A DNA stretch of 35,990 nucleotides from Klebsiella pneumoniae (GTDB lineage: Bacteria > Pseudomonadota > Gammaproteobacteria > Ga0077536): assembly GCA_945876945.1 (NCBI GenBank), contig CAMCQE010000024.1, positions 1-35,990 of the forward strand, given 5' to 3'. Positions 1,385 through 28,031 of the stretch are shown piece after piece. Every line of letters starts with the position of its first letter. Positions within the stretch are counted from its first letter, which is position 1. The notes beneath the pieces are model-generated. The model made no database searches and was not told the origin of the DNA. It saw only the letters and a list, made by a program, of their open reading frames with translations. Both the position numbers and the translations under genes were made by a program.

Positions 1385-2272
1385 ATGACCGGTATCGACA
1401 TCAGCTTTGAGTTTTTCCCGCCGCGCAGCCCGGATGCGGTGGCGCGACTGGAGCAGACGCGCACCCACCTCAACGCCTGGCGTCCCAGTTTCTTTTCGGT
1501 CACCTTCGGCGCCGGCGGCAGCACGCGGGAACTCACGCTCGAAACCGCGCAGGCCGTCACCGCCGCCACCGGCGTGGACTGCGCGCCCCATATTTCCTGT
1601 CTCGGCACGCCGCAAGCGGAACTGCGCGCGGTGATTCAGCGTTATGTGGCTGTGGGCATTAAACGCGTGGTGGCGCTGCGCGGCGATATGCCCTCGGGGC
1701 TCACCGGCTTTGGCGAACTGCGCTATGCCAGCGAATTAGTGGCGTTTATCCGACAGGAAGCCGGTGACGCCTTCCATATTGAAGTTGCGGCCTATCCGGA
1801 GTTCCATCCGCAGGCCACCACCGCAGCCGCCGACCTCCAGCATTTCAAGACCAAGGTCGAGGCCGGCGCCAACAGCGCCATTACCCAGTATTTCTACAAC
1901 CCGGACGCCTATTTCCGCTTCCTCGACAGCTGCGCGGCGCTCGGGATTAGCCTGCCGATCGTGCCCGGCATCATGCCGATCACCAACTTCTCGCAGCTCA
2001 TGCGTTTCTCGGAGATGTGTGGCGCCGAAGTGCCGCGCTGGATTGTGAAGCGCCTGCGCGATTTCGGGGACGACCGCGAGGCGATTCGCGCCTTCGGCAT
2101 CGACGTGACTTCTGCCCTGTGCGAACGCCTGGTCGCGGGCGGCGCGCCGGGCCTGCATTTCTACACCATGAACCAACACGAGGCGGCGACCGCCATCCTC
2201 ACCAATATCGGAGTGAACAGCAGCCATGGACGGCAGCTCGACGCTAAGCACTCACCGCCGGCCGTCGACTAG
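1385..2272 (+). CDS. metF: methylenetetrahydrofolate reductase
   Basis: MetF reduces 5,10-methylenetetrahydrofolate to 5-methyltetrahydrofolate with FAD, supplying the methyl group for methionine synthesis. The 295-residue product has the normal family length and forms a TIM barrel. Visible family signatures are FEFFPPR at the N-terminus (with the catalytic Glu at residue 9), FSVTFGAGGS, APHISCLG, VALRGDMP, the EVAAYPEFHP region, GAN..ITQYFYN, PGIMPITN and a C-terminal PGLHFYTMNQ. The start ATG follows only a weak ribosome site. The last 47 bases overlap the start of the mshL-like secretin gene, so the pilus operon may be co-transcribed with metF. No other methionine-cycle gene is adjacent. 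Confidence 0.95.
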   Translation: MTGIDISFEFFPPRSPDAVARLEQTRTHLNAWRPSFFSVTFGAGGSTRELTLETAQAVTAATGVDCAPHISCLGTPQAELRAVIQRYVAVGIKRVVALRGDMPSGLTGFGELRYASELVAFIRQEAGDAFHIEVAAYPEFHPQATTAAADLQHFKTKVEAGANSAITQYFYNPDAYFRFLDSCAALGISLPIVPGIMPITNFSQLMRFSEMCGAEVPRWIVKRLRDFGDDREAIRAFGIDVTSALCERLVAGGAPGLHFYTMNQHEAATAILTNIGVNSSHGRQLDAKHSPPAVD

Positions 2273-3899
2273 ACGCGCAGGCTACGCGCTCGGGCTTGCG
2301 CTGGGTCTTGCGCTCGGCGGCTGCGCCACGCCGCCGCCGACGTTCAAGGCCCCGCCTGGGGCCCTGACGGCGCCGCCGGCCGCCGCGCGGACCGCGACTA
2401 TTCCGTCCCTGCCGGCGGCGCTGCCGCTGGTGCCACCCCCGCCGGCGACCGGCGCCGGCAAACGCTATCGCGTGGTGGTCAACCATGTGCCGCTGCGCGA
2501 TGTGTTGTTTGCGCTGGCGCGGGACGCCGCGCTCAATCTTGATCTCCGCGGTGAGCTGTCCGATCCGGTGACCGTGCACGTGGTGGACGAGACTGTGCCG
2601 CAGATTCTCGCGCGCCTCGGCCGCCAGTTCGCGCTTCGCTACACGCTTGAGGGCGACCGCCTGACGGTGGCCCCGGATGAGCCTTACTTCCACACCTACG
2701 AAGTGGACTACGTCAACCTGGCCCGCGATACCGAGACCTCGGTCAGTGTGGCCACCCAGGTCGCGACGACGGGCGAGGGCGGCGCCGGGCAGGCCGCCGG
2801 CAGCGGGGGCGGGCCGGGCAGCAACAGCTCTTCAACGCGGGTGAATTCAAAGGCCAGCCACCGCTTCTGGCCCACGCTCGCCGCCAATGTGCTGGCCCTC
2901 ATCGGCAAGGCCGCGCCGGCGGGCGAGGAACTCCCAAGTTCCGAGGCGCTGGTCGTCAACCCCGAGGCCGGTTTGCTGTCGGTCAAGGCGACGCATCGAC
3001 AACACGCCGAAATCGCCGCCTTCATCCAGCAGGTGCTGAGCCACGTGCGCCGGCAGGTGCTGATTGAAGCCACCGTGGTGGAAGTCAGTCTCAACGACCG
3101 CTACCAGTCGGGCGTGGATTGGCAACTGATTCTGGACGAAGCCCGCGCCGGCCTTGGCGCCAGCCAGAACCTCCTGGGCGCGCTGTCCGACGGCGCGGCG
3201 GCGCTCACGCTGGGCTATCACCACCCGGACGCCGACGGCCGCGTCATCGACGCCACGCTGAAGCTCCTGCATGAGTTTGGTGACACCCGGGTGCTTTCAA
3301 GCCCGCGCCTGATGGTGCTCAACAACCAGACCGCGCTGCTGAAAGTGGTGGAGGAACTCGTGTACTTCACCGTGCAGGTGACCGCCACCGACGGCACCGC
3401 CAACGCGCAGGGCCGCACGGTGGTGCAGAGCGAGGTCCACTCGGTGCCGGTGGGCCTGGTGATGGCGGTGACGCCGCAAATTTCGGCCGATGCCGAAGTC
3501 ACGCTCACCGTGCGGCCCACCATCTCGCAGAAAATTGGCGAGGCCATCGACCCCGGCCCGCAGCTCGCGCTTAGCCTGAACGGCGACGGCCAATCCCTGC
3601 CCAACAACACCGTGCCGGTGATCCGCACCCGCGAAATGGAGTCGGTGCTGAAACTTGTGAACGGGCAGGTGGGCGTGCTCGGCGGCTTGATGCAGGACGA
3701 GCAAATTGTGAACCGTCGGGAAGTGCCGGGCTTGAGTCAGCTGCCGGGGCTTGGGGCCTGGCTGTTCCGGGGCGAAAGCCGGAGTCACCGCAAGACAGAA
3801 CTGGTGATTTTTCTGCGGCCCGCGGTGGTGGAGACGCCGAGCGTCGCCCGCGACCTGCGGGACTATCAACCCTGGCTGGAACAGGGGGTCCGCTCATGA
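2226..3899 (+). CDS. mshL: MshL-like outer-membrane secretin lipoprotein
   Basis: Secretins form the multimeric outer-membrane gate through which a type IV-like pilus exits. The 557-residue protein has an Arg-rich n-region, a hydrophobic stretch and a lipobox LGGC with Cys33, so it is probably a lipoprotein. A Pro/Ala-rich linker follows, then an STN/N0-like domain (VPLRDVLFALARDAALNLDL, about 90-150). Next comes a Gly/Ser-rich loop (about 180-205), and the C-terminal secretin domain with VEVSLNDRYQSGVDW, SSPRLMVLNNQTA, and the closing VLGGLMQDE...PGLSQLPGLGAWLF and ELVIFLRP. This architecture matches the MSHA protein MshL better than PilQ or GspD. The ATG lies inside metF; this start is needed to keep the whole signal peptide. 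The gene ends in an ATGA overlap with the next gene. Confidence 0.87.
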   Translation: MDGSSTLSTHRRPSTRRAGYALGLALGLALGGCATPPPTFKAPPGALTAPPAAARTATIPSLPAALPLVPPPPATGAGKRYRVVVNHVPLRDVLFALARDAALNLDLRGELSDPVTVHVVDETVPQILARLGRQFALRYTLEGDRLTVAPDEPYFHTYEVDYVNLARDTETSVSVATQVATTGEGGAGQAAGSGGGPGSNSSSTRVNSKASHRFWPTLAANVLALIGKAAPAGEELPSSEALVVNPEAGLLSVKATHRQHAEIAAFIQQVLSHVRRQVLIEATVVEVSLNDRYQSGVDWQLILDEARAGLGASQNLLGALSDGAAALTLGYHHPDADGRVIDATLKLLHEFGDTRVLSSPRLMVLNNQTALLKVVEELVYFTVQVTATDGTANAQGRTVVQSEVHSVPVGLVMAVTPQISADAEVTLTVRPTISQKIGEAIDPGPQLALSLNGDGQSLPNNTVPVIRTREMESVLKLVNGQVGVLGGLMQDEQIVNRREVPGLSQLPGLGAWLFRGESRSHRKTELVIFLRPAVVETPSVARDLRDYQPWLEQGVRS

Positions 3900-4771
3900 G
3901 CCGGCGCCCAAGCCTCTCGCCTCCGCTGCAGTGGCGAAGCTCAACGCCGGCGCTGGCTTGCCTCGTCGCGGTGGCCCTGGCGCTGGGCTTCGGCGCCGGC
4001 GCGCGGCGCCTGCAAGGCCACGCGGTCGCGCTGCCAGTGCCGCAGCTGCCGCAGGTGAACGTGACGCCGGCAACGCTGCCCTGGCCTGCGGTGGTCGCGC
4101 CGGAACCGCTTATCCCGCCGACCTCGCTCGCGTCCGCCGAGGCTCCGGACCCCGCCAACCCGCCATCAGGCGCTGCGGCGCCGGAGATCGATATTCATCT
4201 CGCGCCGCCGCGCAGGGGGACGCCGCTCGCGATCGCCCACGCCGCCTGGTGGCGGGGCGATTGGGCTACCGCGCGCACCGCCTATCTGGCCGCGCGCGCG
4301 CAGACGCCGCGACTCGCCGAGCCCGAACTCGGTCTGGCGGCGCTCGCGTTGCGTGAGGGCGCGAGCGCCGTGGCCGCCAGTCACTATCACGCCGCCTTGC
4401 GGCTCGACCCCACCAATCCCATCGCGCGAATCGGCCTGCTGAGCGAGACGCCCGCCAGCGTCGGGCGCCGGGACCTCGCGCAGGAGAGTCGCAATCCCCG
4501 GGAGCTCGCCCATTTCCACTACGCGCTCGGCCGAGCGGCGGCGGCGGCTCTCCAGTGGGCGGGCGCCCGGCAGGCTTTCGCGCAGGCCCTCGCGCTGTCG
4601 GCCAGCCCCGATTACGCGGTGGCGCTCGCCGTAGCGCTCGATCATCTGGGGCTTGAGACCGAAGCCGCGGGCTACTACCGCCGCGCCCTCGCCGACTGGT
4701 CGGCCGCGCGCGCCGGTTTTGACCCGGCCCCTATCCGCTTGCGGCTGCAAGCGCTGAATGCCGAATTTTGA
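3896..4771 (+). CDS. MshN-like membrane-anchored TPR protein
   Basis: A 291-residue protein with a short cytoplasmic N-terminus, one membrane segment (about 18-37), a Pro/Ala-rich periplasmic linker (about 45-110), and helical repeats resembling tetratricopeptide repeats (for example WWRGDWATARTAYLAARAQ, then SHYHAALRLDPTNP and ARQAFAQALAL). In Vibrio MSHA loci a TPR protein of this layout, MshN, sits next to the ATPase gene mshE and is needed for pilus assembly. The position here, between secretin and ATPase, is the same. No mshM-like AAA ATPase is present between secretin and TPR gene, unlike the Vibrio order. The start overlaps the previous stop (ATGA). The MshN assignment rests on architecture and position, because the sequence itself is poorly diagnostic. 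Confidence 0.7.
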   Translation: MSRRPSLSPPLQWRSSTPALACLVAVALALGFGAGARRLQGHAVALPVPQLPQVNVTPATLPWPAVVAPEPLIPPTSLASAEAPDPANPPSGAAAPEIDIHLAPPRRGTPLAIAHAAWWRGDWATARTAYLAARAQTPRLAEPELGLAALALREGASAVAASHYHAALRLDPTNPIARIGLLSETPASVGRRDLAQESRNPRELAHFHYALGRAAAAALQWAGARQAFAQALALSASPDYAVALAVALDHLGLETEAAGYYRRALADWSAARAGFDPAPIRLRLQALNAEF

Positions 4772-4781
4772 GGGGGCGACG

Positions 4782-6482
4782 ATGGCATCTGTCCCGCAAC
4801 GCCTGGGTGATCTTTTGCTGGCGCGGCGCGCGCTGAGTCCGGACCAACTGGGAACAGCGCTGGCCGAGCAGCAGCGCCGGCCCGAGCCGCTGGGGCAGAT
4901 CCTGCTCCGGCTTGGCTTTGTCACCGAAAACCACTTGCTGGAGGCCTTTGGCCACGCCGTGCACGACTCGGCGGTGCCGGGCGCGCGGCTGCGTCCCGAG
5001 GCGGCGGCGCTGGCGCTGCTGCCGGGGGATCTTGCACAACGATTCCAGGTCTTGCCCTTGAGTGTCGAGCCCACGCTGGGGCGCCTGACGCTCGCCATGC
5101 GCGACCCCGACGACGTGGTGGCGTTGGACCACTGCGCCGCGCAGTTGCCGGCCAACACCACCATCGACGCGCGGGCGGTCGATGCGGCAGCACTGCGCGA
5201 CGCGATCGAGCAGGCCTACGGGCTACGCAGCTCGGTACAGGCGCTCACGCAACAGTTCGAACCACAGGTCGGCCGCTCACTGCGCGATACGGCCGAGGCG
5301 TCGCCGCCCGTCATCCGCTTGCTGGAGGCGGTGCTGGCCGAGGCCGTGCGGCAAGGCGCTTCGGATATCCATTTCCAACCCGGCGCAGCGGGCCTCGCGC
5401 TCCGCTATCGGGTGGACGGCGTTTTGCGCCTCGCGCATAGCCTGCATCGGGACTACTGGCCACCGTTGGCCGTGCGCGTAAAGGTGTTGGCCGGGCTCGA
5501 TATCGCCGAGTCACGGGCACCGCAGGACGGCCGCTTCAGCCAGCAGGTGGCCGGGCGCGAGATCGACTTCCGGGTCGCCAGTTTGCCCACCACGCAGGGC
5601 GAAAACATCGTGTTGCGGGTGCTGGATCGGGCGCGCGGCATTGTGCCGCTGACGGGGCTGGGGCTGGACGAGGCGAGCCTGCAGCGCCTGCGGCTGATGG
5701 TCGCCCGGCCAAGTGGCTTGATGCTGGTGTGCGGACCCACCGGCTCCGGCAAGACCACCACGCTCTATAGCCTGCTCAATCACCTGAACAATCCGGCGGT
5801 GAACATCATGACGCTGGAGGATCCGGTGGAATATCCGCTCGCGGACATCCGCCAGACCTCGCTCGCGGAGGGCCTGCGGCTCGATTTCGCCAGCGGCGTG
5901 CGGGCCTTGCTGCGTCAGGATCCGGACATCCTGCTGATTGGTGAAATCCGCGACGAGGACACCGCCGCCATGGCCTTGCGCGCGGCGATGACCGGGCATC
6001 AGGTGTTCTCCACCCTGCATGCCACCGCCGCGCTCGGGGCCTTGCCCCGACTGTTCGAGATGGGCATTGAGCCGGCCTTGCTGGCCGGCAATCTGAGCGG
6101 CCTGATGGCCCAGCGGCTGGTCAGAAAGCTGCGTCCCGAGTGCATTGAGTGGGTGATGGCGAACGCGCTTGAGCGGCGCCTGCTGGGCATGGCCGAAGGC
6201 GAGCACCGCAAACACCCGCGCCCCACGGCCAGCGCCCGGCAGGCGGTGCACGGCGGGTATGCCGGGCGGATCGCGCTCATGGAGTTGCTCCGGGTGGACC
6301 GCGCGATGGATGAACTCATCGCCCGCAACGCCGGCCCGCGCGAACTGGCGCTGGCGGCGCGCGGCGCGGGTTTTGTCGGGCTGGCCGAGGTGGCGAGCGA
6401 ACGGGTGCTGGCCGGCCTCACCACGCTGGAGGAGATCGCGCGCGTGGTTGACCTCACGCCGCGCGTGGAAGCGCTGCCGTGA
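4782..6482 (+). CDS. mshE: MshE-like pilus assembly ATPase with MshEN domain
   Basis: A GspE/PilB-family hexameric ATPase that powers pilin polymerisation at the inner membrane. It has 566 residues from the ATG at 4782, preceded by a purine-rich GAGGGGG. An ATG at 4758 is an alternative. Residues 7-56 carry two tandem MshEN-type motifs (RLGDLLLARRALSPDQL and PLGQILLRLGFVTENHLL), the module that binds cyclic di-GMP in Vibrio MshE. Walker A is GPTGSGKT at 318-325, and Walker B is DPDILLIGE at 380-388. An Asp box (TLEDPVEYP) and a His box (TGHQVFSTLHA) are present. The paired CxxC zinc-finger motif usual before GYxGRIxxxELL is absent: a single Cys remains and GGYAGRIALMELL follows directly. It overlaps the next gene by GTGA. 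Confidence 0.9.
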   Translation: MASVPQRLGDLLLARRALSPDQLGTALAEQQRRPEPLGQILLRLGFVTENHLLEAFGHAVHDSAVPGARLRPEAAALALLPGDLAQRFQVLPLSVEPTLGRLTLAMRDPDDVVALDHCAAQLPANTTIDARAVDAAALRDAIEQAYGLRSSVQALTQQFEPQVGRSLRDTAEASPPVIRLLEAVLAEAVRQGASDIHFQPGAAGLALRYRVDGVLRLAHSLHRDYWPPLAVRVKVLAGLDIAESRAPQDGRFSQQVAGREIDFRVASLPTTQGENIVLRVLDRARGIVPLTGLGLDEASLQRLRLMVARPSGLMLVCGPTGSGKTTTLYSLLNHLNNPAVNIMTLEDPVEYPLADIRQTSLAEGLRLDFASGVRALLRQDPDILLIGEIRDEDTAAMALRAAMTGHQVFSTLHATAALGALPRLFEMGIEPALLAGNLSGLMAQRLVRKLRPECIEWVMANALERRLLGMAEGEHRKHPRPTASARQAVHGGYAGRIALMELLRVDRAMDELIARNAGPRELALAARGAGFVGLAEVASERVLAGLTTLEEIARVVDLTPRVEALP

Positions 6483-7675
6483 GAGCTTTCCGCTATCGCG
6501 CGATCGATGCGGGTGGCGGGGTGCATCAGGGCCACGCGCGGGCGTCCGGGCTGGCAGAGCTGGACGCGCTGCTCGCCGGCCGTGGGCTGGAACTCCTCCG
6601 CGCCCGACCCAGCTGGCGGCCCGGCGCGCGCGCTCTGCCCCGGCTGCCGCGTCCGGCGCAAATGCTCTTGTTGAGCCAGCTCGAGCAATTGCTGCGCGCG
6701 GGTTTGCCGATGCTGGAGATTCTGGCCGAGCTTGCGCGGGCGGGCGGCGGGGCCGGCGCGATCGCCCGTGGCCTGGCCGAGAGCATCGCGGCCGGGCTGC
6801 CGCTGTCGGCCGGGCTCGCGCGTTTCCCTCAGGGGTTTGATCCCGTGCTGGTGAGTCTGGTGCGGGCCGGGGAAGAAAGCGGCAGCTTGCCGGCCCTGCT
6901 GCGGCAAGCGGTGGCGGACCTGCGGTGGCAGGAGGAACAACTTGCGCTGACGCGGCGGGTGTTGCTGTATCCGGCGCTGGTCGGCGGCGTGTTGGCGGCG
7001 GCGCTGTCCTTCCTGCTGGTGTACGTGGTGCCACAACTCGCCGGCTTCCTCACCGGCATGGGGCAATCCCTACCGCCGCAGACCCGCGCGCTGCTGGCCT
7101 GTGCCGAAGGGCTCAAAGCGTACGGCCTGTTCGCCGGGGTCGGGCTTGGGCTGCTGACGGTCGGCGCCCTCACGGCGATTCGTAGCAATACAGCGCTGGC
7201 CACCGCCTTCGATCGCCTGTGTCTGCGCTTGCCCGTGTTCGGGCCAGTGCTCGGCAAGCTCGCCCTCGGCCGGATGTGTCGGGTGTGCGCCGTGCTCTAC
7301 GCCGCCGGCATTCCCCTGCCGGAGGCCCTGCGCCTGACTCGCGGCGTGCTGACTAACCGGGCGCTACGCACAGCGCTGGTGGTGGCGGAGGAACAAATCG
7401 ACGCCGGCGCCGGCTTACACGATGCGTTCGCGGCGGCGCAGATATTCCCCGACCTCTTGCTGCGGATGCTACGCGTGGGCGAGCACAGCGGGCGGCTCGA
7501 TGAGGCGCTGGGCCAGGTTGCCGAGTGTTTCGCCAGCGAAGCGCGTGAAACCGTCGCGCGCCTGCAGACGCTGCTCAATCCCGCGCTGGTCGGGGTGCTC
7601 GGATTGGTACTGCTATGGATCGTCTGGGCCGTGTTCGAGCCGCTTTACGGGCTGCTCACCCACCTGCGGGTGTAG
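6479..7675 (+). CDS. mshG: PilC/GspF/MshG-family inner-membrane platform protein
   Basis: The platform protein couples the cytoplasmic ATPase to pilin insertion. The 398-residue product has two T2SSF domains, each with the usual signature: LLSQLEQLLRAGLPMLEIL...GLPLSAGLARFP...VRAGEESGSLP in the first half, and RVCAVLYAAGIPLPEALRL...LLRMLRVGEHSGRLDEAL in the second. Hydrophobic segments occur near residues 161-186, 210-230 and 365-390. The start is a GTG overlapping the TGA of the ATPase gene, and the protein begins FRYRAID, a common beginning for this family. Seven bases separate it from the next gene. Confidence 0.88.
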   Translation: MRAFRYRAIDAGGGVHQGHARASGLAELDALLAGRGLELLRARPSWRPGARALPRLPRPAQMLLLSQLEQLLRAGLPMLEILAELARAGGGAGAIARGLAESIAAGLPLSAGLARFPQGFDPVLVSLVRAGEESGSLPALLRQAVADLRWQEEQLALTRRVLLYPALVGGVLAAALSFLLVYVVPQLAGFLTGMGQSLPPQTRALLACAEGLKAYGLFAGVGLGLLTVGALTAIRSNTALATAFDRLCLRLPVFGPVLGKLALGRMCRVCAVLYAAGIPLPEALRLTRGVLTNRALRTALVVAEEQIDAGAGLHDAFAAAQIFPDLLLRMLRVGEHSGRLDEALGQVAECFASEARETVARLQTLLNPALVGVLGLVLLWIVWAVFEPLYGLLTHLRV

Positions 7676-7681
7676 CCGGCG

Positions 7682-9133
7682 ATGCGTCGCGCTGATGTGC
7701 TGATGGTGGGGCCGGACGGCGTGCGCTTGCTCCGCTGCGCGCGAGATCAGGTGGCAACGCTTTGGGCCGGGCCGAACGGGGCACAGGCGCCGGGGGCGGT
7801 GGGGGAGGTGTTGCGCACTCTGGCACCCGGCCCCGTATGGCTGCTGCTCGATGTGGTGGAGGAGGAATATCTGACGGCGAGCCTGCCTGCGATGGCGTTG
7901 CGGGACCGTGCCCGCTTGCTCGAGCGACGGCTGGCGAGCGCCTTTGGCAGCACGCCGCTGCGACTGGCCCAGCCGGCAACGGTAACCCGGCCTGCGTCGT
8001 CGTTGCTCAGCGCCATCACCCGGCCTGAACTGCTCACCCCATGGCTGGAGGTGCTGCGCGAGAGCCCCAGCGCGTTGGCGGGGGTGTATTCGCTGGCGCT
8101 GCTGGGCCCGGCGCTGCTGTCGCTCATCGGCCCGACCGCAGGCCCCTGCGTGCTGGTGAGCCGTCAGGGGGTGGGCGGGCTGCGGCAAAGTTTTCTGCGC
8201 GATGGGCAACTGGTGATGAGTCGCCTGGTGCCGCTCGGCGCCGCGCAGGACACGCTGGATGGCGCGCGGGTGGAAACCGAACTCGCCCGCCTGCGCCAAT
8301 ACCTCGAGCGCTCAGGCCTGTGTGCGCCGGACGAGACGCCCGCCGTGGTGGTCTTGACCGCCGAAGGCCGCCACGCGGCGTCGGCGAACGGGGCCGCGCA
8401 GGCCTGGCGCTACGTCGCGGTGGACGCCCTACTCGGCGCGCGCGGCCCCCGTCAGATAGACGACTGTGACGCGCTCTTTGCCGCGCTGTTGTGCCGCACG
8501 CCGCCTGCCACCCAGTACGCGAGCCCCGCCCAGACCGCGGTGCATCGGGGCCGACGGCGAACCCGTCTGGCGCTGAGTGCGATGGCGCTCGGTCTGTGCC
8601 TGGCCGCCGGCGCGGGTCTGTGGCAAACCCTTGAGGGCTTGCAGCTGGCGGCGCGTGCGGCGGCGCTGGCGGCGCACAACGGCGAGACGCAGGCCAGTCT
8701 CATCATTAGCCGCGCAGCAGTGCCGCCAGTGCTGATGCCGAGTGCGCAGCTGCGGCCCGCGGTCGCCCTGGTGGCCGAGGTCGCAAGCCGCCGCAGCAAT
8801 CCGCAGCCCGCGCTCGCCAGGGCCGAGGCGGCGCTCGCCACCGTGTCGGCGCTGCGCTGGACTGCGCTGGAATGGCAGGCGGCAGAGGCGGCAAGCCCTG
8901 CCGATGTAGGGCAGACATTGATTCGCGGCACGGTGGAAGGGCTGGGCGGCGATGAGCGGGCAGCGCTCGGGGTGATCTCTGCGCTTGCCAGCGCGCTTGC
9001 CGGGCAGCCGGGTGTGGCTGGCGTAAAAATTCTGGAGACGCCGCTGGATTTGCCGGCTAGCCCCGGCCCGGCGGCGCCGCCTAGCCCCGGCTTTGCAGTG
9101 TCCTTCACGCTGGGCAGCCGCCATGCGCCCTGA
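7682..9133 (+). CDS. GspL/PilM-PilN-like (MshI position) pilus assembly protein
   Basis: The 483-residue protein has a cytoplasmic N-terminal part of about 290 residues, one membrane segment (LALSAMALGLCLAAGAGLW, about 299-317) and a periplasmic C-terminal part. This is the layout of GspL or of a PilM-PilN fusion. The cytoplasmic part has recognisable pieces of the actin-like fold (LLLDVVEEEYLTASLPAM, and VLVSRQGVGGLRQSFLRDGQL). Vibrio MSHA loci have MshI in this functional slot. Sequence conservation is weak, so the role is inferred from topology and from its place between platform protein and a PilO-like gene. The start ATG is 7 bases after the previous stop. Confidence 0.62.
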   Translation: MRRADVLMVGPDGVRLLRCARDQVATLWAGPNGAQAPGAVGEVLRTLAPGPVWLLLDVVEEEYLTASLPAMALRDRARLLERRLASAFGSTPLRLAQPATVTRPASSLLSAITRPELLTPWLEVLRESPSALAGVYSLALLGPALLSLIGPTAGPCVLVSRQGVGGLRQSFLRDGQLVMSRLVPLGAAQDTLDGARVETELARLRQYLERSGLCAPDETPAVVVLTAEGRHAASANGAAQAWRYVAVDALLGARGPRQIDDCDALFAALLCRTPPATQYASPAQTAVHRGRRRTRLALSAMALGLCLAAGAGLWQTLEGLQLAARAAALAAHNGETQASLIISRAAVPPVLMPSAQLRPAVALVAEVASRRSNPQPALARAEAALATVSALRWTALEWQAAEAASPADVGQTLIRGTVEGLGGDERAALGVISALASALAGQPGVAGVKILETPLDLPASPGPAAPPSPGFAVSFTLGSRHAP

Positions 9134-9719
9134 GGCACTGGCGCGCTGGTGGCGAACGCTCGGCTACGCGCTCGGCGTGGCGCTCGCCCTTGCGCTGGTG
9201 CTGGGCCCCTATCGCTTTCATACCCGGATGGCGCAGCGCCTCGCCGCAGCGGAGGCCGTTCAGGCCGCGCTGGAGAGAGAATCCGCGGCGCTGACCGAGG
9301 CGGCGCGCGCGCAGACGCAGTGGGCCCCCGCCGTGGTGGCGCTCGCGCGACAGGGTCTGCTGGGGTTGCCGGCGCGGCTCAGCTGGGTCGAAGCCCTGAA
9401 AGCGGCCGGCCCCGCGCTTGCGCTGCGTGATTGGCAGTGGTCGTTCGGGCCGCAGGCGGCGGCCACCGTGTCGGACTTGATGCCGGTCGCCGGCTTCGCG
9501 GTGGTCGCAGCCCCGGTGAGTCTGCGTTTCGGGGCGCCCGATCTGACCCGCGTCGGCGATTTACTGCGCTGGCTGGAGCGCCACGCGGGTGGGGTTTTCA
9601 CCGTTCGCGCTTGTCATCTGCAGCGCCTGGACATGAAGGCGCCCGGGAACATCGAGGCGCGTTGCGAAAGCCAGTGGCTGACGGTGCAGCCGGCGGCCGA
9701 GCAGGGGCAGCCACCATGA
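9123..9719 (+). CDS. PilO/GspM/MshJ-like pilus assembly protein
   Basis: A 198-residue bitopic protein: about 10 cytoplasmic residues, one membrane helix (LGYALGVALALALVLGPY), a heptad-like helical region rich in Ala, Glu and Gln (about 35-75), then a small periplasmic alpha/beta domain. PilO, GspM and MshJ share this plan and pair with PilN, GspL or MshI, which fits the gene upstream. I prefer the ATG at 9123 (overlapping the previous gene by 11 bases) because it places the helix directly after a short basic N-terminus; the frame is open further upstream. It ends in an ATGA overlap with the next gene. Confidence 0.62.
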   Translation: MRPEALARWWRTLGYALGVALALALVLGPYRFHTRMAQRLAAAEAVQAALERESAALTEAARAQTQWAPAVVALARQGLLGLPARLSWVEALKAAGPALALRDWQWSFGPQAAATVSDLMPVAGFAVVAAPVSLRFGAPDLTRVGDLLRWLERHAGGVFTVRACHLQRLDMKAPGNIEARCESQWLTVQPAAEQGQPP

Positions 9720-11545
9720 GACCTGCAGGCCGCGAGCGCGGGATCATCGTCTTGATGCTGCTGGTGGTGTTGGCGCTGACCGCGGCCAGCGCCCTCCTGC
9801 TCACCGATCTGAACGCGAATCGCGCCACGCCGGCTGCGGTCGCCCGCCAGACGGCAACCGCGCTGGCCGAAGCGCGCGGCGCCTTGCTGGGCTATGCGGC
9901 GGCTTATCCGGATCGGGCCGGCGTGAACAGTCGCACCGCGGGTCCGGGCCTTTTGCCCTGTCCGGATACACGACTGGACAGCAACGATGTGGCCGGGCAG
10001 GCGGATTCTCCCTGTGCGCTATCGAGCGCGACTGAGACCGGACTGCTGCCCTGGCGCACGCTGGCGCTGTCCGATTTGCGCGACGGCACCGGCGCGCCGC
10101 TGTGGTACGCGCTCGCGAACGGCTATCGGAATAACCCCGCCGGGGTGGTGAACAGCGACACCCCGGCGGGCTTGCGCCTTGATAACTGTCGGCTCGACGG
10201 TCGGCGCATCGCCGCCCTCGTGCTGGCGCCCGGTGCGCCGCTGGGTGGCCAACAGCGCAACGCCGACGCCCTCGCGACGCGCTATCAGGCCAGCCACTAT
10301 CTGGAAGAGGCCAATGCCAGTCGCGGCGACGGCTGTTTCGGCAGCACCACCGGCGCGAGCGCGAACGACGTGCTCGTCGCCATCGACCGCGAGGCGCTGA
10401 ACGCGGTGATGGAGCGCCGGGTGCTGGCTGAGGTGCTGCGCGCCTTGCGTCGTTACGCGGCCGACCCGGAGGCCAACGACCGCAACGGGCAGGACCCGGT
10501 GTGTCTCGCCGCGAGTGCTGCCGGGGATTGCGATACCGCGCTGCCCTGGCTAAGCCCCTGGGCGCCGCCGGCCACCAGCCCGTTTGCTGGCGTGGTCGGC
10601 ACCCGCATCGGGCAACTGCCGCTCCGGCGGGTGGGCGAGAGCTTCGCCGCGCCCTATCTCGCCCGCTGGACCTTGGCCAGCGGCACGCTCACCAGCACCG
10701 GCGTATCGCCGCCGTCCGCCGCCTGCCTGCGCGATACCACGCAGCCCTGCGTGGTGCAGCCGCCGGGCTTTCTGGCCGGCACCGTGCTGCGGCGTGACGC
10801 GGCCGCGGAAGGCGCGCCGCGCTGTCGCTGGCCGGGCGGCAGCGCGCTGGTGTGCGAACGCAGCGTGGCGGTGGCCGATGCGGGCGGCTCGGGGAATACC
10901 CTGGTTCGGCACGAAACCATTGCCTTCAGCGGCTTACCCCGCCAGATCCAGCGGCCCGACGCCACGCACCTGCGCCGCGAGGCCACCAGTCTCAAGGCCG
11001 AAATCCTGCCGGCAGGCGCGGGCTTGGACATCAGCATGGAAGACGTCGTCCGCAATCCCGCCGGACAGGTGCAGGCCGTGGGCGCCTCGCGGCTAAGGCT
11101 TGAGGCCGGGGCGCCGGTCAACGAGTTCGTGGTGGAGGACGTCCCGCTCGATCTGGAAGTAGACGATGACGGTCAGCTCGAGCCTGCGAACCGGGCGTCG
11201 CCGGGCGAACTGCCGGCGTGGTTTGTCGCCAATCGCTGGCAGGACTATGTACTGGTGGCCTACAGCCCGGCTTTGGCGCCGGGTAGCGGCGGGCGGGCCT
11301 GTACGGCGGGCGCCGACTGTCTGCTGCTCGCCCGGCGGTCGCCGGACGGCAATACGCAAACGCTTGATGACGTGACCGGACTGGTGGTGCTGGCGGGCGC
11401 GGCGCTGCCCTCCCAGCGGCGTAGCGCAGGTGATCCGGCCCAATGGTTTGAAGGGGACAACGCGCGCTTGGGCGGGCAGTTCACCGAGCAAGCGCCGGAT
11501 GCGCGTTTTAACGACCGTCTGCGCCGGCTGGAGAGCCATGATTAG
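9716..11545 (+). CDS. large PilX/GspK-like pilin-related protein with an LPCPD motif
   Basis: A 609-residue protein with a prepilin-like N-terminus (RERG, then IIVLMLLVVLALTAASALLL). Mature position 5 is Met rather than the Glu found in major pilins; loss of Glu5 is known for GspK and PilX-type minor subunits, so this may be the tip-capping subunit. After the helix comes ARGALLGYAAAYPDR...GLLPCPDT, a motif also present in the next gene. The rest is a large domain with many Cys residues (for example CLAASAAGDCD, CLRDTTQPCVV, CRWPGGSALVC, CTAGADCLL) that could form disulfides outside the cell. The true start is the ATG at 9716, overlapping the previous stop (ATGA). It overlaps the next gene by 8 bases. 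Exact function is unknown. Confidence 0.65.
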   Translation: MRPAGRERGIIVLMLLVVLALTAASALLLTDLNANRATPAAVARQTATALAEARGALLGYAAAYPDRAGVNSRTAGPGLLPCPDTRLDSNDVAGQADSPCALSSATETGLLPWRTLALSDLRDGTGAPLWYALANGYRNNPAGVVNSDTPAGLRLDNCRLDGRRIAALVLAPGAPLGGQQRNADALATRYQASHYLEEANASRGDGCFGSTTGASANDVLVAIDREALNAVMERRVLAEVLRALRRYAADPEANDRNGQDPVCLAASAAGDCDTALPWLSPWAPPATSPFAGVVGTRIGQLPLRRVGESFAAPYLARWTLASGTLTSTGVSPPSAACLRDTTQPCVVQPPGFLAGTVLRRDAAAEGAPRCRWPGGSALVCERSVAVADAGGSGNTLVRHETIAFSGLPRQIQRPDATHLRREATSLKAEILPAGAGLDISMEDVVRNPAGQVQAVGASRLRLEAGAPVNEFVVEDVPLDLEVDDDGQLEPANRASPGELPAWFVANRWQDYVLVAYSPALAPGSGGRACTAGADCLLLARRSPDGNTQTLDDVTGLVVLAGAALPSQRRSAGDPAQWFEGDNARLGGQFTEQAPDARFNDRLRRLESHD

Positions 11546-12326
11546 GCGCGCTGCGGGCTTCACTTTACTCGAGCTTGCCATGGTGCTGATGGTGCTCGGC
11601 CTGGTGCTGGCCGGTGGGATCGGTCCGCTGGAAACACAGCTGGAGCAGCGCGACCGGGCGGCCACGCAGGTCTCGCTCGAGCGCGTGCGCGATGCCTTGC
11701 TGGGCTATGCCGGCACCTATGGCCGCTTGCCTTGCCCCGATGCGGATGGCGATGGCTTGCCGGATCCGGTTTTCGATCCCGCCCGCAAAGCGAGCGCCAC
11801 TTGTGCCCGCAGCACGGGCTTTTTGCCCGGTGCCGAGTTGGGCGTGCTCGCCACCGATGCCTGGGGCAACCGCTTGGTCTATCGGGTGACCGCGCCGCGC
11901 TTCACCTGGCCCGACGCGGATGGCCTGTGCAACGGCAATGCAAGCGGCGAGCTCGATCTCTGCGCGCAGGGGGAGATCATCGTGCATAGCCGGGGCGACA
12001 ACCCGCAGACCAATGGCCGGAGCGAGGGCAAGTTCGACCTTGTGCTGGCAGACAAGGTGCCGGCGCTGGTGGTGTCCCCGGGGCGCAACGGGGCGGGCGC
12101 GACCGGCGCTAACGGACTGACGCGCGCCGCGCCCTCCGGCGAGGACGAGCAAGACAACGCCAACGGTGACGCGCGGTATCTGTTGCGCAACCCGACGCGA
12201 GGAGCGCCGAGCTGTAGCGACAGCGGCAACGAAGCGACCCCGCTGTGTGAGTTCGACGACTTGGGCGTGTGGCTGTCACCGGTGGTGCTGCAGGAGCGGC
12301 TGGTGGCCAGCGGGCGTCTCCCTTAA
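11538..12326 (+). CDS. type IV pilin-like protein with an LPCPD motif
   Basis: A 262-residue prepilin. A 7-residue leader ending in Gly is followed by FTLLELAMVLMVLGLVLAGG, the class III signal with Glu at mature position 5, for processing by a prepilin peptidase (not in this window). After the N-terminal helix comes RVRDALLGYAGTYGRLPCPDADGDG, shared with the 609-residue protein upstream. Several Cys residues (CARSTG, CNGNASGELDLC, CSDSGNEATPLC) may form disulfides in the exported domain. The ATG at 11538 overlaps the preceding stop and places the cleavage motif at the right distance; upstream in-frame codons would give an unlikely leader. Probably a minor pilin or pseudopilin of this pilus. 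Confidence 0.8.
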   Translation: MIRRAAGFTLLELAMVLMVLGLVLAGGIGPLETQLEQRDRAATQVSLERVRDALLGYAGTYGRLPCPDADGDGLPDPVFDPARKASATCARSTGFLPGAELGVLATDAWGNRLVYRVTAPRFTWPDADGLCNGNASGELDLCAQGEIIVHSRGDNPQTNGRSEGKFDLVLADKVPALVVSPGRNGAGATGANGLTRAAPSGEDEQDNANGDARYLLRNPTRGAPSCSDSGNEATPLCEFDDLGVWLSPVVLQERLVASGRLP

Positions 12327-12372
12327 ATCCCTGTTCCCTAAATCTTTCCCTATCTCAAAGGAGTGAGTAGTG

Positions 12373-13083
12373 ATGGCAAATGCCAAACGTCAGCGTGGTT
12401 TTACCCTGATCGAAATCGCCATCGTGCTGGTGATCGTGGGGCTCTTGTTGGGCGGCGTGCTCAAAGGGCAGGAGCTGATTACCAGCGCAAGGGTGCGCAA
12501 TCTGGCCGATCAGGCGACCAGCATTCAGGCGGCCTATCACGGCTTTATCGACCGCTATCGTCAGGTTCCGGGCGACTGGCCGGCGGCGCTGGCCACTCAG
12601 GCCGTGCCCGGCGTCGGCACCGGCGGCAACGGTAACGGCCGCATCGACACCGCTAACGGCAGCGAATGGAGCGAGCCGCTGGCCGCCTGGGAACAACTCG
12701 CCCGGAGCGGTTTTCTGCAAGGCAACTACGTTGGGGGCAGTGCGGCGCCGACCGCCGCCCAGAACGACCGGGCGCCCCGCAACGCCTTCAACGGCTTCAT
12801 GTTCATTACGCGGTCCGACGCCTATCTCGATTTGGCGACGCCCGCCGAGCGGCAGCTGTTGGTGCTGGGGCGCGGGATTCCCGTCAACGTGCTGCGCGAA
12901 CTGGACGTGAAGCTGGATGATGGCTTGCCACAAACCGGCGCATTGCGTCAGGCAAGCACGAGCGGCGCCGCACTCGGGGAGCTTGCGCAGTCCGCCGCAA
13001 ACTGTGTGGACACCACCACCCAGCCAGCCATCTGGAACATTGCGGGCAACGTCCAGGACTGCAACGGTGTGCTGCTCTACTGA
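12373..13083 (+). CDS. type IV pilin-like protein (candidate major subunit)
   Basis: A 236-residue prepilin with a 9-residue basic leader ending RQRG, then FTLIEIAIVLVIVGLLLGGVLKGQELI, with Glu5 in the mature helix. The C-terminal domain contains YRQVPGDWPAAL and a Gly/Asn-rich loop (about 78-97), then two Cys near the end (CVDTTTQP and DCNGVLLY) that could form the disulfide loop typical of pilins. It is the only gene of the locus not overlapping its neighbour: 46 bases precede it and hold a strong ribosome site, AAAGGAG at 12357-12363. That suggests higher translation, so it is my candidate for the major subunit. GTG at 12370 directly before the ATG is a possible alternative start. Confidence 0.78.
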   Translation: MANAKRQRGFTLIEIAIVLVIVGLLLGGVLKGQELITSARVRNLADQATSIQAAYHGFIDRYRQVPGDWPAALATQAVPGVGTGGNGNGRIDTANGSEWSEPLAAWEQLARSGFLQGNYVGGSAAPTAAQNDRAPRNAFNGFMFITRSDAYLDLATPAERQLLVLGRGIPVNVLRELDVKLDDGLPQTGALRQASTSGAALGELAQSAANCVDTTTQPAIWNIAGNVQDCNGVLLY

Positions 13084-13087
13084 TCGG

Positions 13088-13105
13088 CGCCACGTCCTTG
13101 TGGCG
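13088..13105 (+). terminator. possible hairpin after the pilus operon
   Basis: CGCCAC at 13088-13093 and GTGGCG at 13100-13105 pair perfectly around a 6-base loop, 5 bases after the last pilin stop. A clear T run is lacking, so this may be a weak terminator or an mRNA-stabilising hairpin. Confidence 0.35.
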
Positions 13106-13187
13106 GCGATGCTTTGGTTCCGGGCGGCCGGCTAAAGTTTGCGCTGGACATCGCCGCTACGCGAGTTCGGTTAGAAGAGAGCCCGCC

Positions 13188-13880
13188 ATGATCGAACTGC
13201 CTCCCAAGCTTGCTGATTTGTTGCTGGACAGTGTGTCGGAAGGGCTCGCCTTGCTCGACGAGAACGGGCTGATTGCCTGGGCCAATGCGGCGTTTTGTGG
13301 CCGGATTGGCGCTTCGCGCGACACCTGCTGCGGCCGCCCGGTCGCCGCGCTCGATCCGCAGGGCAGAGGCACCGACGGCATGACGGTCAGGGATTTACGC
13401 CCGCTTGGGGTCGAGGCAGATTTGCTCCGTCTCCCCATGCTGGATTCCCGGCTCGATACCTCGCAGATCGGCATTCTGCCCAAGGCGACCGCCGAACAGC
13501 GGATGGACCTCGAGATTTCCAGGAGCAGGCGCTACGGCAATCCCTTGTCCTGCATGCTGGTCTCGGTGCCGGAAGATACGAGCCCCGAAACCTTGCGCGC
13601 CCTGGCGCGATTCCTCCGCGAACAGCTGCGCTGGGTAGACACCACCGCCTGGTGGGATAACGCGACCATTCTGGTGCTGCTGCCTGAAACCACCGCGCTG
13701 GCCGCGCAGGAGCTCGGGCGAAAACTGCAAGAACACTCAGTGGGCGCGATGCCAGACCTCCCCTTCCAGTGGAGCGCCGCTACCTGGCAGCGGGGTGACG
13801 ATAGTCTGGGGCTGGTGGTGCGAGCGCGGCGCGGTGAAGGCGCCGCCGACTTGCCCCTCAGGGCGCAGGCGACTCGATAA
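13188..13880 (+). CDS. PAS domain plus degenerate GGDEF domain protein
   Basis: A 230-residue protein. Residues 1-60 resemble a PAS sensor (LLLDSVSEGLALLDENGLIAWANAAFCGRIGA). Residues about 100-215 look like a GGDEF fold: EISRSRRYGNPLSCMLVSV matches the start of that domain (usually D...ARRYG.PLSLLLLDI), and DTTAWWDNATILVLLPET aligns with the usual region R.GGDEF..LLPET. The GG(D/E)EF signature itself is gone, so diguanylate cyclase activity is unlikely; it may be a ligand sensor or a regulatory partner. It lies 104 bases after the last pilin gene in the same direction. Its last 23 bases overlap the convergent OsmC-like gene. Confidence 0.7.
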   Translation: MIELPPKLADLLLDSVSEGLALLDENGLIAWANAAFCGRIGASRDTCCGRPVAALDPQGRGTDGMTVRDLRPLGVEADLLRLPMLDSRLDTSQIGILPKATAEQRMDLEISRSRRYGNPLSCMLVSVPEDTSPETLRALARFLREQLRWVDTTAWWDNATILVLLPETTALAAQELGRKLQEHSVGAMPDLPFQWSAATWQRGDDSLGLVVRARRGEGAADLPLRAQATR

Positions 13881-14283
13881 TCTCGAAATCATGGGTAATG
13901 ACAGCCGTCTTGCCCAACATGATAGAGGCCGAACAATATTTTTCGGCCGACAGATTTACCGCCCGCTCGACCTGTGCGGGCTTGAGTCCGGTGCCGCTGA
14001 CCACAAAGTGCACATGAATTTTCGTAAAGACCTTCGGGATCTCATCCGCGCGCTCTGCGCTGAGTTCCACGCGGCAGTCGCTCACCGCCTGACGCGCTTT
14101 CTGCAGGATGGTCACCACGTCGAAAGCACTGCATCCGCCCATTCCGACCAACACCATCTCCATCGGGCGCATGCCGATATTGCGACCGCCGGCGTCCGGG
14201 GGGCCGTCCATCACGACGGCATGTCCGCTTTCGGACTCGCCCACAAAGGACACGCCATCCACCCATTTAATCGTTGCTTTCAT
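13858..14283 (-). CDS. OsmC family protein (YhfA-like)
   Basis: OsmC-type proteins are small cytoplasmic dimers; several reduce organic peroxides with paired cysteines. This 141-residue product starts MKATIKWVDGVSFVGES and has GPPDAGGRNIGMRPMEMVLVGMGGCSAFDVV, with a first Cys at the GGCSA site, and EKYCSASIMLGKTA with the second Cys. Both conserved Cys positions are therefore present. The frame is open upstream, but the ATG at 14283 gives the usual family start. It is divergent from crp, exactly as yhfA is in E. coli, which supports the YhfA subgroup. Substrate unknown. The 3' end overlaps the PAS/GGDEF gene tail to tail. Confidence 0.88.
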   Translation of the reverse strand: MKATIKWVDGVSFVGESESGHAVVMDGPPDAGGRNIGMRPMEMVLVGMGGCSAFDVVTILQKARQAVSDCRVELSAERADEIPKVFTKIHVHFVVSGTGLKPAQVERAVNLSAEKYCSASIMLGKTAVITHDFEIIESPAP

Positions 14284-14286
14284 GCG

Positions 14287-14317
14287 TTGACTGCCTTGGC
14301 TTACGAGGCCGTACACT
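14287..14317 (+). promoter_or_regulatory. possible crp promoter
   Basis: TTGACT at 14287-14292 and TACACT at 14312-14317 resemble -35 and -10 boxes with a rather long 19-base spacer, upstream of the crp start at 14400. Pattern only. Confidence 0.28.
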
Positions 14318-14399
14318 TTAACCGCCTGTGCGCTTCAGCGGGAAATGCTGACTCGCGCTTTGCCATTGAATCGCGACTCATTGCCAAGGAGAAACCGTG

Positions 14400-15053
14400 A
14401 TGGCTTTAGCACCGAAACCGCAGCCGCTTGCCAGCCTCCCCATTCAGAATTTTCTCGGCCACTGCCAACGCAAGCAGTTTGCTGCCAAAAGCGTGATCAT
14501 CCGGCAGGGCGACCCCTCGAAAGATCTCTATTTCGTCGTGAAAGGCTCGGTCACCGTATTGCTGGAAGAGGAAGACGGCCGCGATTTGGTGCTGGCTTAC
14601 CTCAACCCGGGTGATTTCTTTGGCGAGATCGGGCTGTTCAACGAATCCCTCAGTCGCAGCGCCATGGTGCGGGCCAAAACGGCCTGCGAAATCGCCTATA
14701 TCAGCTACGACAAGGTGAAAAGCCTGCCCAGCGTGTTCCCGGATTTGCTCTTCGCGATCGCGAGCCAACTCGCCAGTCGCCTGCGCCGAATGAACAGTAA
14801 GGTGGGCAATCTGGCGTTCATGGACGTGTCGGGTCGGGTCGCGAGAAGTTTGCTGGATTTATGCAAAGAGCCCGATGCGATGACCCACCCCGATGGCATG
14901 CAAATCAGGGTGACGCGTCAGGAACTGGGCCGCATCGTTGGATGTTCAAGGGAGATGGTGGGACGCGTGCTGAAGACGCTGGAAGAACAGCACCTCATTG
15001 CCGTGAGTGGCAAATCGATCGTGGTCTACAACGTTTACCCGGAGCAGGACTGA
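14400..15053 (+). CDS. crp: CRP/Vfr-type global transcription regulator
   Basis: A 217-residue regulator of the CRP family: N-terminal cyclic-nucleotide-binding beta roll (about 15-125), long dimerisation helix, C-terminal winged HTH. The recognition region TRQELGRIVGCSREMVGRVLKTLEE is nearly identical to that of E. coli CRP and Pseudomonas Vfr, so the target is probably a TGTGA-type palindrome. The phosphate-binding cassette GEIGLF...SRSAMVRAK (75-93) is kept, including Arg86 and Ser87. The residues matching E. coli Thr127 and Ser128, which contact the adenine across the dimer, are here Met131 and Asn132. Ligand response may therefore differ. AAGGAG at 14386-14391 lies 8 bases before the ATG at 14400; GTG at 14397 is an alternative start. 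Confidence 0.93.
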   Translation: MALAPKPQPLASLPIQNFLGHCQRKQFAAKSVIIRQGDPSKDLYFVVKGSVTVLLEEEDGRDLVLAYLNPGDFFGEIGLFNESLSRSAMVRAKTACEIAYISYDKVKSLPSVFPDLLFAIASQLASRLRRMNSKVGNLAFMDVSGRVARSLLDLCKEPDAMTHPDGMQIRVTRQELGRIVGCSREMVGRVLKTLEEQHLIAVSGKSIVVYNVYPEQD

Positions 15054-15062
15054 TTTTGTTCC

Positions 15063-15091
15063 TTGACAGTCCGGGAGGCACCCCGGACAAT
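15063..15091 (+). promoter_or_regulatory. sigma70-type promoter overlapped by an inverted repeat, upstream of tRNA-Met
   Basis: TTGACA at 15063-15068 and GACAAT at 15086-15091 with a 17-base spacer is a strong sigma70 pattern. The spacer and -10 contain a perfect inverted repeat, GTCCGGG (15069-15075) and CCCGGAC (15082-15088). It is the best promoter for the tRNA at 15241, about 150 bases downstream. The repeat could be an operator or, alternatively, the crp terminator hairpin, although no T run follows. Confidence 0.5.
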
Positions 15092-15123
15092 CCCGCGCCT
15101 CAAATTCACAGGCAGGTGAACTC

Positions 15124-15143
15124 GCTTCCGGCAATTCGGAAGC
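15124..15143. repeat. small inverted repeat in the tRNA leader
   Basis: GCTTCCG at 15124-15130 and CGGAAGC at 15137-15143 pair perfectly around a 6-base loop between the candidate promoter and the tRNA. It could fold in the tRNA precursor; function unknown. Confidence 0.35.
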
Positions 15144-15240
15144 ACCGTCAGGATGCACATTCCGACGGCACCAATCACTACCTGAGTCGGCCAGTTCACC
15201 TCAACCCCCAGAGGCCTGACGACGCTACTTTCGACAGGAT

Positions 15241-15317
15241 GGCTACGTAGCTCAGCTGGTTAGAGCGCGGCACTCATAATGCTGAGGTCGGTGGTTCGAG
15301 TCCACCCGTAGCCACCA
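15241..15317 (+). tRNA. tRNA-Met (anticodon CAT)
   Basis: A 77-nt cloverleaf with encoded CCA end. The acceptor stem GGCTACG pairs with CGTAGCC, the D stem GCTC with GAGC, the anticodon stem CGGCA with TGCTG around loop CTCATAA, and the T stem GGTGG with CCACC around TTCGAGT. The full acceptor stem, including the first base pair, argues for elongator rather than initiator tRNA-Met. A diverged copy of its 3' part lies at 19312-19363. Confidence 0.95.
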
Positions 15318-15325
15318 ATTTACTC
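15274..15325 (+). repeat. att-like direct repeat, left copy (3' part of tRNA-Met)
   Basis: The 52 bases from the anticodon loop to 8 bases past the CCA recur at 19312-19363 with 48 of 52 identities by hand alignment. Direct repeats of a tRNA 3' end are the usual mark of site-specific integration. No integrase is seen between them. Confidence 0.7.
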
Positions 15326-15581
15326 CTCTCGAAGATCCCCACGTCGACCCGATCACCGGGCGACTCTCCGTGTCTCCAATCAATTTGAAATCGAAGCAGG
15401 CGTACCACTCGCTTGATGCCCGCTGAGCGATCGACGCGTCGCTGCTCCCTCACCTTTTGAAGATCGGCAACCCACATCGGCAACGGTCGACCCGCAAAGA
15501 ACTGGAAATTCTTTTGTAGGCAGGCACCTGGCGCTTCCCTGATATCGGTAAATGACCCCCGCCGACCTGCAAACCGAAGTC
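15326..15581. other. unassigned stretch after the tRNA
   Basis: No supportable gene in about 255 bases between the tRNA and the first Fic remnant. Short open frames on the minus strand have no recognisable domain and run into the tRNA. Confidence 0.4.
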
Positions 15582-27938: not shown

Positions 27939-28031
27939 AAGCTTTGCGCGCAGTCGCCCCGGCTGCTGCGTTGCCTCTCCTCTCCGACCTCTGGCACGCT
28001 AGCCAAATGATCAATCGTCTCGACCATTGTC

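Follow-up and report, generated by a model that had tools for sequence, protein, structure and literature searches.

Gene content of the block

The subject of this analysis is a block of nine genes for a machine of the type IV filament kind, found in a 35,990-nucleotide contig recorded as Klebsiella pneumoniae (GCA_945876945.1, CAMCQE010000024.1). This whole stretch, referred to below as the window, is one whole contig (C24) of the source genome G000, a 3.8-Mb draft that is 97 % complete; genomes, contigs and loci are numbered with the prefixes G, C and L. Names are given by likeness to the mannose-sensitive haemagglutinin (MSHA) pilus and the type II secretion system (T2SS). The nine genes, and a tenth that follows them, are:

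2226..3899, + strand: secretin, MshL-like, 557 amino acids (aa); PF00263 at 2e-37, TIGR02519 (MshL) at 250.6 bits against a cut-off of 250.2
3896..4771, + strand: tetratricopeptide repeat (TPR) protein in the MshN position, 291 aa; TPR_2 above the Pfam cut-off
4782..6482 (start may be 4758), + strand: assembly motor ATPase, MshE-like; T2SSE at 3e-110, MshEN at 2.5e-10, NF053729
6479..7675, + strand: platform protein, MshG/GspF-like, 398 aa; T2SSF (PF00482) at 1e-40
7682..9133, + strand: inner-membrane protein 'I' in the MshI/GspL position, 483 aa; no family match, conserved in relatives
9123..9719, + strand: inner-membrane protein 'J' in the MshJ/PilO/GspM position, 198 aa; no family match, conserved in relatives
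9716..11545, + strand: X, pilin-like subunit, 609 aa; hhalign match to pilin1, internal repeat, AlphaFold2 model
11538..12326, + strand: pilin1, 262 aa, with a GFTLLE N-terminus and a DGDG loop; TIGR02532 at 18.5 against a cut-off of 16.3 (scanned from 11541)
12373..13083, + strand: pilin2, 236 aa, with a GFTLIE N-terminus; N_methyl (PF07963) at 3e-8
13188..13880, + strand: tenth gene, PAS plus degenerate GGDEF-like, probable sensor or regulator; PAS_4 at 1.5e-4 and GGDEF at 0.044, both below the Pfam cut-offs

All nine block genes were confirmed in place, mostly overlapping by a few bases, with two of the starts checked on the DNA, and the pilus-type block with L-N-E-G order recognised in a preliminary description of this DNA stands. 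The elements that define the type IV filament superfamily are present, namely an assembly ATPase (PF00437), a platform protein (PF00482) and pilins with a prepilin motif (PF07963/TIGR02532); for pilin1, the Pfam N_methyl score of 20.2 is just below the cut-off of 21.2. At the N-terminus of the motor, both MshEN and the cyclic di-GMP (c-di-GMP) motif NF053729 score above their cut-offs, and the Walker A sequence is GPTGSGKT. A paired CxxC, a zinc-type motif, occurs in 0/14 rows of the window's family and in 19/19 of the remaining motors of this type, a count that excludes the three more distant systems. The secretin contains LGGC, a lipoprotein-type motif, as read by eye. No prepilin peptidase was found among the ten scanned window proteins.

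The ten genes (2226-13880) are flanked by metF and an OsmC-like gene, with a transketolase fragment upstream of metF (all three named by eye). The tenth gene keeps the same position in many relatives. All ten are open, and the ratio of non-synonymous to synonymous substitution (dN/dS) between G000 and G014 ranges from 0.07 (pilin2) to 0.42 (TPR protein); by this measure, purifying selection acts on all ten genes.

Other machines in the genome and ancestry of the block

The source genome has further loci of this superfamily. An ordinary MSHA cluster on contig C39 comprises two MshI-type open reading frames (ORFs), MshJ, MshL, MshM, MshN, MshE, MshG and pilins (names by eye), its MshL scoring 266.8 bits with TIGR02519, above the cut-off. 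Likewise, pilB-pilC-pilD of a type IVa pilus (T4aP) locus is on C50 (PilD-like ORF by eye), PilT-type ATPases are on C2, and T2SS genes are on C84 and C71 (by eye and by size). As the MSHA, T4aP and T2SS loci are separate, the block is an extra machine, which could use a prepilin peptidase and retraction ATPases in common with the genome's other loci.

The motor and platform sequences were analysed together in an unrooted tree of 40 rows under LG+C20. An adjacent platform gene was found for 71/80 motors, five near-duplicates (L036, L046, L148, L153 and L162) were taken out, and 40/66 were chosen. Rows were labelled MSHA where there was an MshM match in the same locus, and T2SS or T4aP according to whether they shared a clade of the motor tree with the gspE-like or the pilB-like genes of this genome, so that the unity of the latter two groups is partly by construction. 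The block lineage forms a group of 16 rows (support 98/96), or of 19 rows (100/100) with the three more distant systems, and MSHA (9 rows, 100/100), T2SS (5 rows) and T4aP (7 rows) are each separate from it. Summed from the branch lengths, the stems between the block lineage and MSHA amount to 1.9 changes per column, and those between T2SS and T4aP also to 1.9. In the secretin tree (quick search, Shimodaira-Hasegawa-like approximate likelihood-ratio test only), the block secretins group at 99 and are sister to the MshL clade at 95. The block lineage is probably a deep sister lineage of MSHA and a distinct machine. That it is distinct from true MSHA had been proposed in the preliminary description, and this is borne out by an MSHA cluster on another contig and by both trees, which keep the two apart.

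The three more distant systems (L158, L159 and L163) have a ~405-aa X homologue, a pilin1-like protein, a secretin, a motor and a platform protein, and no matches to I, J or K, K being the gene that follows J in relatives. They are sister to the X-type clusters in the secretin tree and joined to them in the motor and platform tree.

It might be supposed that the block is this lineage's MSHA pilus with diverged subunits, given the same L-N-E-G order, an MshL cut-off that is just passed, and the presence of an MshEN domain. This is very unlikely. The preliminary description had itself raised the case of the block being the ordinary MSHA cluster of the lineage, which is contradicted by the separate cluster with mshM on C39; the two also fall into separate groups in the tree (98/96 and 100/100), and gene order and pilin set differ. 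The genes after G had been described as I/J-like, which is correct for their position; homology of the I and J profiles to the genome's own two MshI-type ORFs and MshJ was not detected (hhalign probability 1.2, 0.5 and 0.4 %; the single-sequence targets limit sensitivity). A family scan of 15 members of the I protein gave nothing convincing, nor did comparison of the I and K profiles with PDB and Pfam.

In the MSH model as given by Denise et al. 2019 (PMC6668835), mshA, E, G, L and M are mandatory and MSH loci have no prepilin peptidase. The models of that paper were not run here; the block has counterparts of mshE, mshG and mshL (the MshL cut-off being passed by 0.4 bit), and further resembles MSHA in a secretin on the MshL side, a TPR protein, a c-di-GMP-type motor and no prepilin peptidase within the block, the fuller relatives also having an MshM-like ATPase. 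It differs in that mshM, present in those relatives, is absent from the window block, that motor and platform lie outside the MSHA clade of the 40-row unrooted tree, and that the block-type order is M-L-N-E-G-I-J-K-X, as against I-J-K-L-M-N-E-G-pilins in the genome's own MSHA cluster. The subunits X, pilin1 and pilin2 also differ, and most relatives examined have an ATP-binding cassette (ABC) transporter, a TPR protein and a histidine kinase inside the cluster. The block would work like MSHA, yet should not be filed as MSHA. From T4aP it is set apart by PilQ (104.4 bits, cut-off 284.4) and PilB (417.9 bits, cut-off 675.7) scores and by a separate tree group.

The fuller plan in relatives

A class-level sample of 276 genomes of the class, drawn by the tool, was searched with the X profile. 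Matches at E<=1e-3 were found in 60/276 genomes, 45 of these scoring at least 100 bits; the weaker matches are partial and may be other pilins. Twenty loci were taken from the match list, mostly top-scoring, of which 15 have the block or part of it, three have the more distant system, one has an X homologue alone and one ends too soon.

In the fuller form, the order is M-L-N-E-G-I-J-K-X-pilin1-[histidine kinase, opposite strand]-ABC permease-TPR-pilin2-ABC ATPase-PAS. K is present in 15/15 class-level loci of the type. An MshM-like ATPase gene is immediately 5′ of the secretin gene in 13/15, the stretch or contig ending first in L147 and L156. The preliminary description had been right that mshM is missing from the window block; its absence is no mark of the type and represents a local loss. 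Both the ABC permease and the opposite-strand histidine kinase are found in 12/15 class-level loci, with neither seen within the stretch in L149, L155 (which reaches ~1 kb past X) and L157. Among 21 loci of the window's own family, 14 have the permease, three (L041, L044 and L045) have pilin1 followed directly by pilin2, as in the window, and four end too soon. The relatives' permease is of the ABC-2 type (Pfam scores just below the cut-offs) and the ATPase is ABC_tran; the kinase has HATPase_c, its best NCBIfam match being PrsK, far below the cut-off.

The TPR partner of the transporter was found in 23/397 genomes of the phylum. Of 13 loci around a TPR-partner match in other classes, five (L274, L275, L278, L285 and L286) show motor and platform matches alongside ABC or TPR parts, as does a named Magnetococcales contig (L081).

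Near relatives in the named collection are metagenome-assembled genomes (MAGs), mostly titled Gammaproteobacteria bacterium and two with 'groundwater' in the title. Three MAG records labelled Klebsiella pneumoniae (L061, L070 and L073) also have a block cluster, and the species label looks wrong. In L157, the X-type cluster is immediately upstream of an MSHA-like cluster (mshL-mshM-mshN-mshE matches) in the same genome. Chitinibacter tainanensis (L083) and Candidatus Venteria ishoeyi (L078) have X and pilin1 homologues with no motor match within ~20 kb. A plasmid origin was considered and rejected, X being without any match in the plasmid collection. Elsewhere in the window, an ORF at 31815-32540 (-) has a start resembling that of an exported protein, and one at 28011-29918 (+) is serine/threonine-kinase-like, both by eye.

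Reduction in the window's group

The window block is without M, K, the kinase, the ABC transporter and its TPR partner; K and the ABC ATPase are absent as far as the block itself, no genome-wide search having been made for these two. The genome's own MshM matches are the one in the canonical cluster, at 331.8 bits, and a weaker homologue on C57 (205.8 bits); no copy of the block's type was found. Within the genus, the distribution of the missing genes is:

Permease: in G007, G009, G012 and G013; not found in G000, G008, G010, G011 and G014
TPR partner: in G009, G012 and G013; not found in G000, G010, G011 and G014; the G007 permease is at the very contig end
Block-type MshM: in G007, G008, G009, G012 and G013 (540-560 bits); not found in G000, G010, G011 and G014
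Kinase: in G007 and G009 only, and thus also missing from two transporter-keeping genomes

That no permease was found in G008 is explained by the end of its contig after K, the genes there being metF, a sigma-54 type activator, M, L, N, E, G, I, J and K. Between metF and L, this sister genome therefore has M and the activator, where the window has nothing. The activator-like ORF of G008 (L273, G008:C10:3000-19663, at 6220-7260; by eye), between metF and the MshM-like gene, has no visible receiver domain; it is a possible partner of the histidine kinase.

Trees of X, pilin1 and the secretin nest the window within its genus or family. In the X tree, its closest neighbour is L044, next come L042 and after it L046/L047, every one a member of the genus (97, 99 and 99); in the pilin1 tree it groups with L044, then L043 (97 and 98); and in the pilin2 tree with L044 (99), then L043 at 88 only. 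The secretin of the window is nested with L044, L042, L048 and L055 (100, 96, 99 and 100). Single absences are weak evidence, since the drafts are incomplete; the agreement of four genomes, together with the closed gene order of the window, L041, L044 and L045, is stronger. Based on trees and synteny, the nine-gene form is a derived reduction in the window and three genus relatives (G010, G011 and G014). A comparison of gene order using the 609-residue protein as bait, as the preliminary description had suggested, does recover a conserved block separate from MSHA, the nine-gene form itself being the derived and reduced one.

Such losses raise the question of whether the block is the decaying rest of a larger machine, no longer working in this lineage. 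The block has lost M, K, the ABC transporter, the TPR partner and the kinase; of these, M, the permease, the TPR protein and the kinase were not found genome-wide either, and there is further decay in G003, where L to K are gone and X is cut short. Against this, the ten genes are open, dN/dS within the reduced group is 0.07-0.42 (G000 compared with G014), and X retains 94 % identity in G014, making a remnant highly improbable. The G003 locus (L032, G003:C2:72000-91999, at 8820-15545) has metF, a shortened X, pilin1, ABC permease, TPR, pilin2 and ABC ATPase, with no L-to-K matches; this is the opposite loss to that of the window, and could be decay or misassembly.

The three pilin-type subunits

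No Pfam or NCBIfam match was found for X, and its family profile against PDB sequences gave a best E of 0.95. The X profile does match pilin1, over nearly all of pilin1 (hhalign E=5.8e-19), and a segment from its head end recurs at the X C-terminus (E=4.6e-11, compared with 0.048-0.69 in 20 column shuffles). Judged by these profiles, X and pilin1 are homologous. After the glycine of the presumed processing site, X reads IIVLM and so has no glutamate at position 5 (Glu5), which both pilin1 and pilin2 have. The AlphaFold2 model of X (predicted local distance difference test, pLDDT, 86.6; predicted template modelling score, pTM, 0.84) has N-terminal helices at 6-35 and 39-63, followed by a first head, a long helix spanning 225-249 and a beta-rich region at ~300-480. 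Its structural matches (Foldseek best E 0.013; VIA best Z 4.4, with 95 residues aligned within 306-475 and the first head barely covered) are only at the level of common arrangements, and for this reason no fold is claimed.

The preliminary description had counted two Cys-rich pilins, which is apt for pilin1 (6 Cys in 262 aa) and not for pilin2 (2 in 236 aa); X has 12. Of the three subunits, pilin2 is the most conserved, being 62-80 % identical to 10 family members. Its profile against the solved MshA (9lab) matches in the N-terminal helix only, at positions 5-26 (E 0.018). It is proposed that pilin2 is the shaft and X/pilin1 the tip.

These subunits could instead belong to a T2SS-like secretion machine, in which pilin1 and pilin2 would form a short periplasmic pseudopilus and X would be a cargo receptor. 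The best family for pilin1 is that of the major pseudopilin GspG (1.4e-7, 31.7 bits), though far below the cut-off of 88.9; I may combine cytosolic and periplasmic parts as GspL does, the profile match to the solved GspL (E 0.27) not being significant; and the gene list of the block includes no retraction motor. The conservation of pilin2 is higher than expected for an exposed shaft, and is therefore a point for secretion. Motor, platform and secretin are of the same superfamily as in T2SS, where the tip subunit GspK lacks Glu5, as does the proposed tip X. However, the GspD, GspE and GspF equivalog scores (168.4, 455.7 and 257.7 bits) are all far below their cut-offs (351.4, 630.3 and 424), the motor has an MshEN c-di-GMP domain, the secretin is on the MshL side of its tree, and the block forms a separate tree group. 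There are three pilin-type subunits only, the genome has T2SS genes at other loci (by eye), and no exoprotein gene was seen in the cluster. A secretion machine is therefore considered unlikely, while remaining the strongest of the alternatives.

Proposed working of the machine

On balance, the block probably codes for a complete machine of the type IV filament kind, from a lineage that is separate from MSHA and sister to it, and the form in the window is probably cut down from a larger ancestral one. A number of points weigh against this. In addition to the conservation of pilin2, the machine is known here from its genes, the tip and shaft roles are proposed from Glu5 and conservation, and the AlphaFold-type model of pilin2 has a pLDDT of 48 and was not used. 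T2SS and T4aP join at 99/97 in the unrooted motor and platform tree, so that MSHA and the block lineage may form one larger clade. In a quick motor-only tree, support was 0.52 for 36 rows including three outlying systems, and 0.989 for 34, and eight rows of the motor and platform alignment, the window's included, have an odd letter make-up. The free motor and platform search placed the window and L044 as sister to the other 14 rows of the type, on a long stem (0.73), a placement compatible with the small form being ancestral. When six family rows were held together, the tree was 68.6 log units better (approximately unbiased test, p-AU 0.994); because the constrained tree is better, the outside placement is taken to be a search artefact on a long branch. 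The reading of loss is strengthened by this constrained tree and by the X and pilin trees.

As a filament machine, the block would work as follows. The PilD-like peptidase of the T4aP locus, acting in trans, would cut the block prepilins. X on pilin1 would form a tip that starts assembly, and X, as it has no Glu5, would cap the filament; tip subunits without Glu5 are described as capping the minor-pilin complex in PMC10191384. The motor, under the control of c-di-GMP acting as a gate at the N-terminal domain, would then drive pilin2 from the platform into the filament, which would pass through the secretin. Outside the cell, the beta region of the tip may bind a surface or ligand and so mediate adhesion.

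In the fuller relatives, the ABC transporter and its TPR partner, encoded among the pilin genes, may help to handle pilins or pilin modification, by analogy with Myxococcus xanthus. There, the likeness is one of gene context, an ABC transporter (PilG-PilH-PilI) lying among pilus genes as it does in the window's relatives only, and the difference is that PilG-PilH-PilI belongs to a T4aP machine. PilG, PilH and PilI are reported as essential for pilin translocation across the inner membrane (PMC3724824), and the account in PMC6060248 states that experimental data supporting ABC transport by PilGHI are not available. The window lineage would have dispensed with the transporter.

Implications for the type IV filament family

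A literature search for such a cluster found no description in titles and abstract openings; subscription journals were mostly outside its coverage, and absence is therefore unproven. What PMC10734457 says of MSHA concerns Vibrio pilins and is unrelated to the block. Six bacterial type IV filaments are listed in the review PMC10191384, where further letters are proposed for new subtypes, and the survey of PMC6668835 expects few new families. More tentatively than the distinctness of the machine, it is suggested that the block may be a seventh bacterial type IV filament subtype, at a distance from MSHA like that between T2SS and T4aP and present in several classes of Pseudomonadota. Its full form may be tied to an ABC transporter, a TPR protein and a histidine kinase that are specific to it, with a giant tip subunit containing a repeated pilin-head segment, and the window may be part of a natural knock-out series that has shed the transporter, the MshM-type ATPase and K while keeping the filament. 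If a rooted tree confirms a separate clade, it is possibly a new subtype.

The known filaments would gain a family in such a lineage, widespread and sister to MSHA, with a tip subunit of its own and an ABC transporter embedded in the locus. The reason why ABC transporters occur in some pilus loci can also be tested with it, since four genomes of the same genus are without the permease and the MshM-type ATPase, yet have pilins under purifying selection (as measured in the G000/G014 pair).

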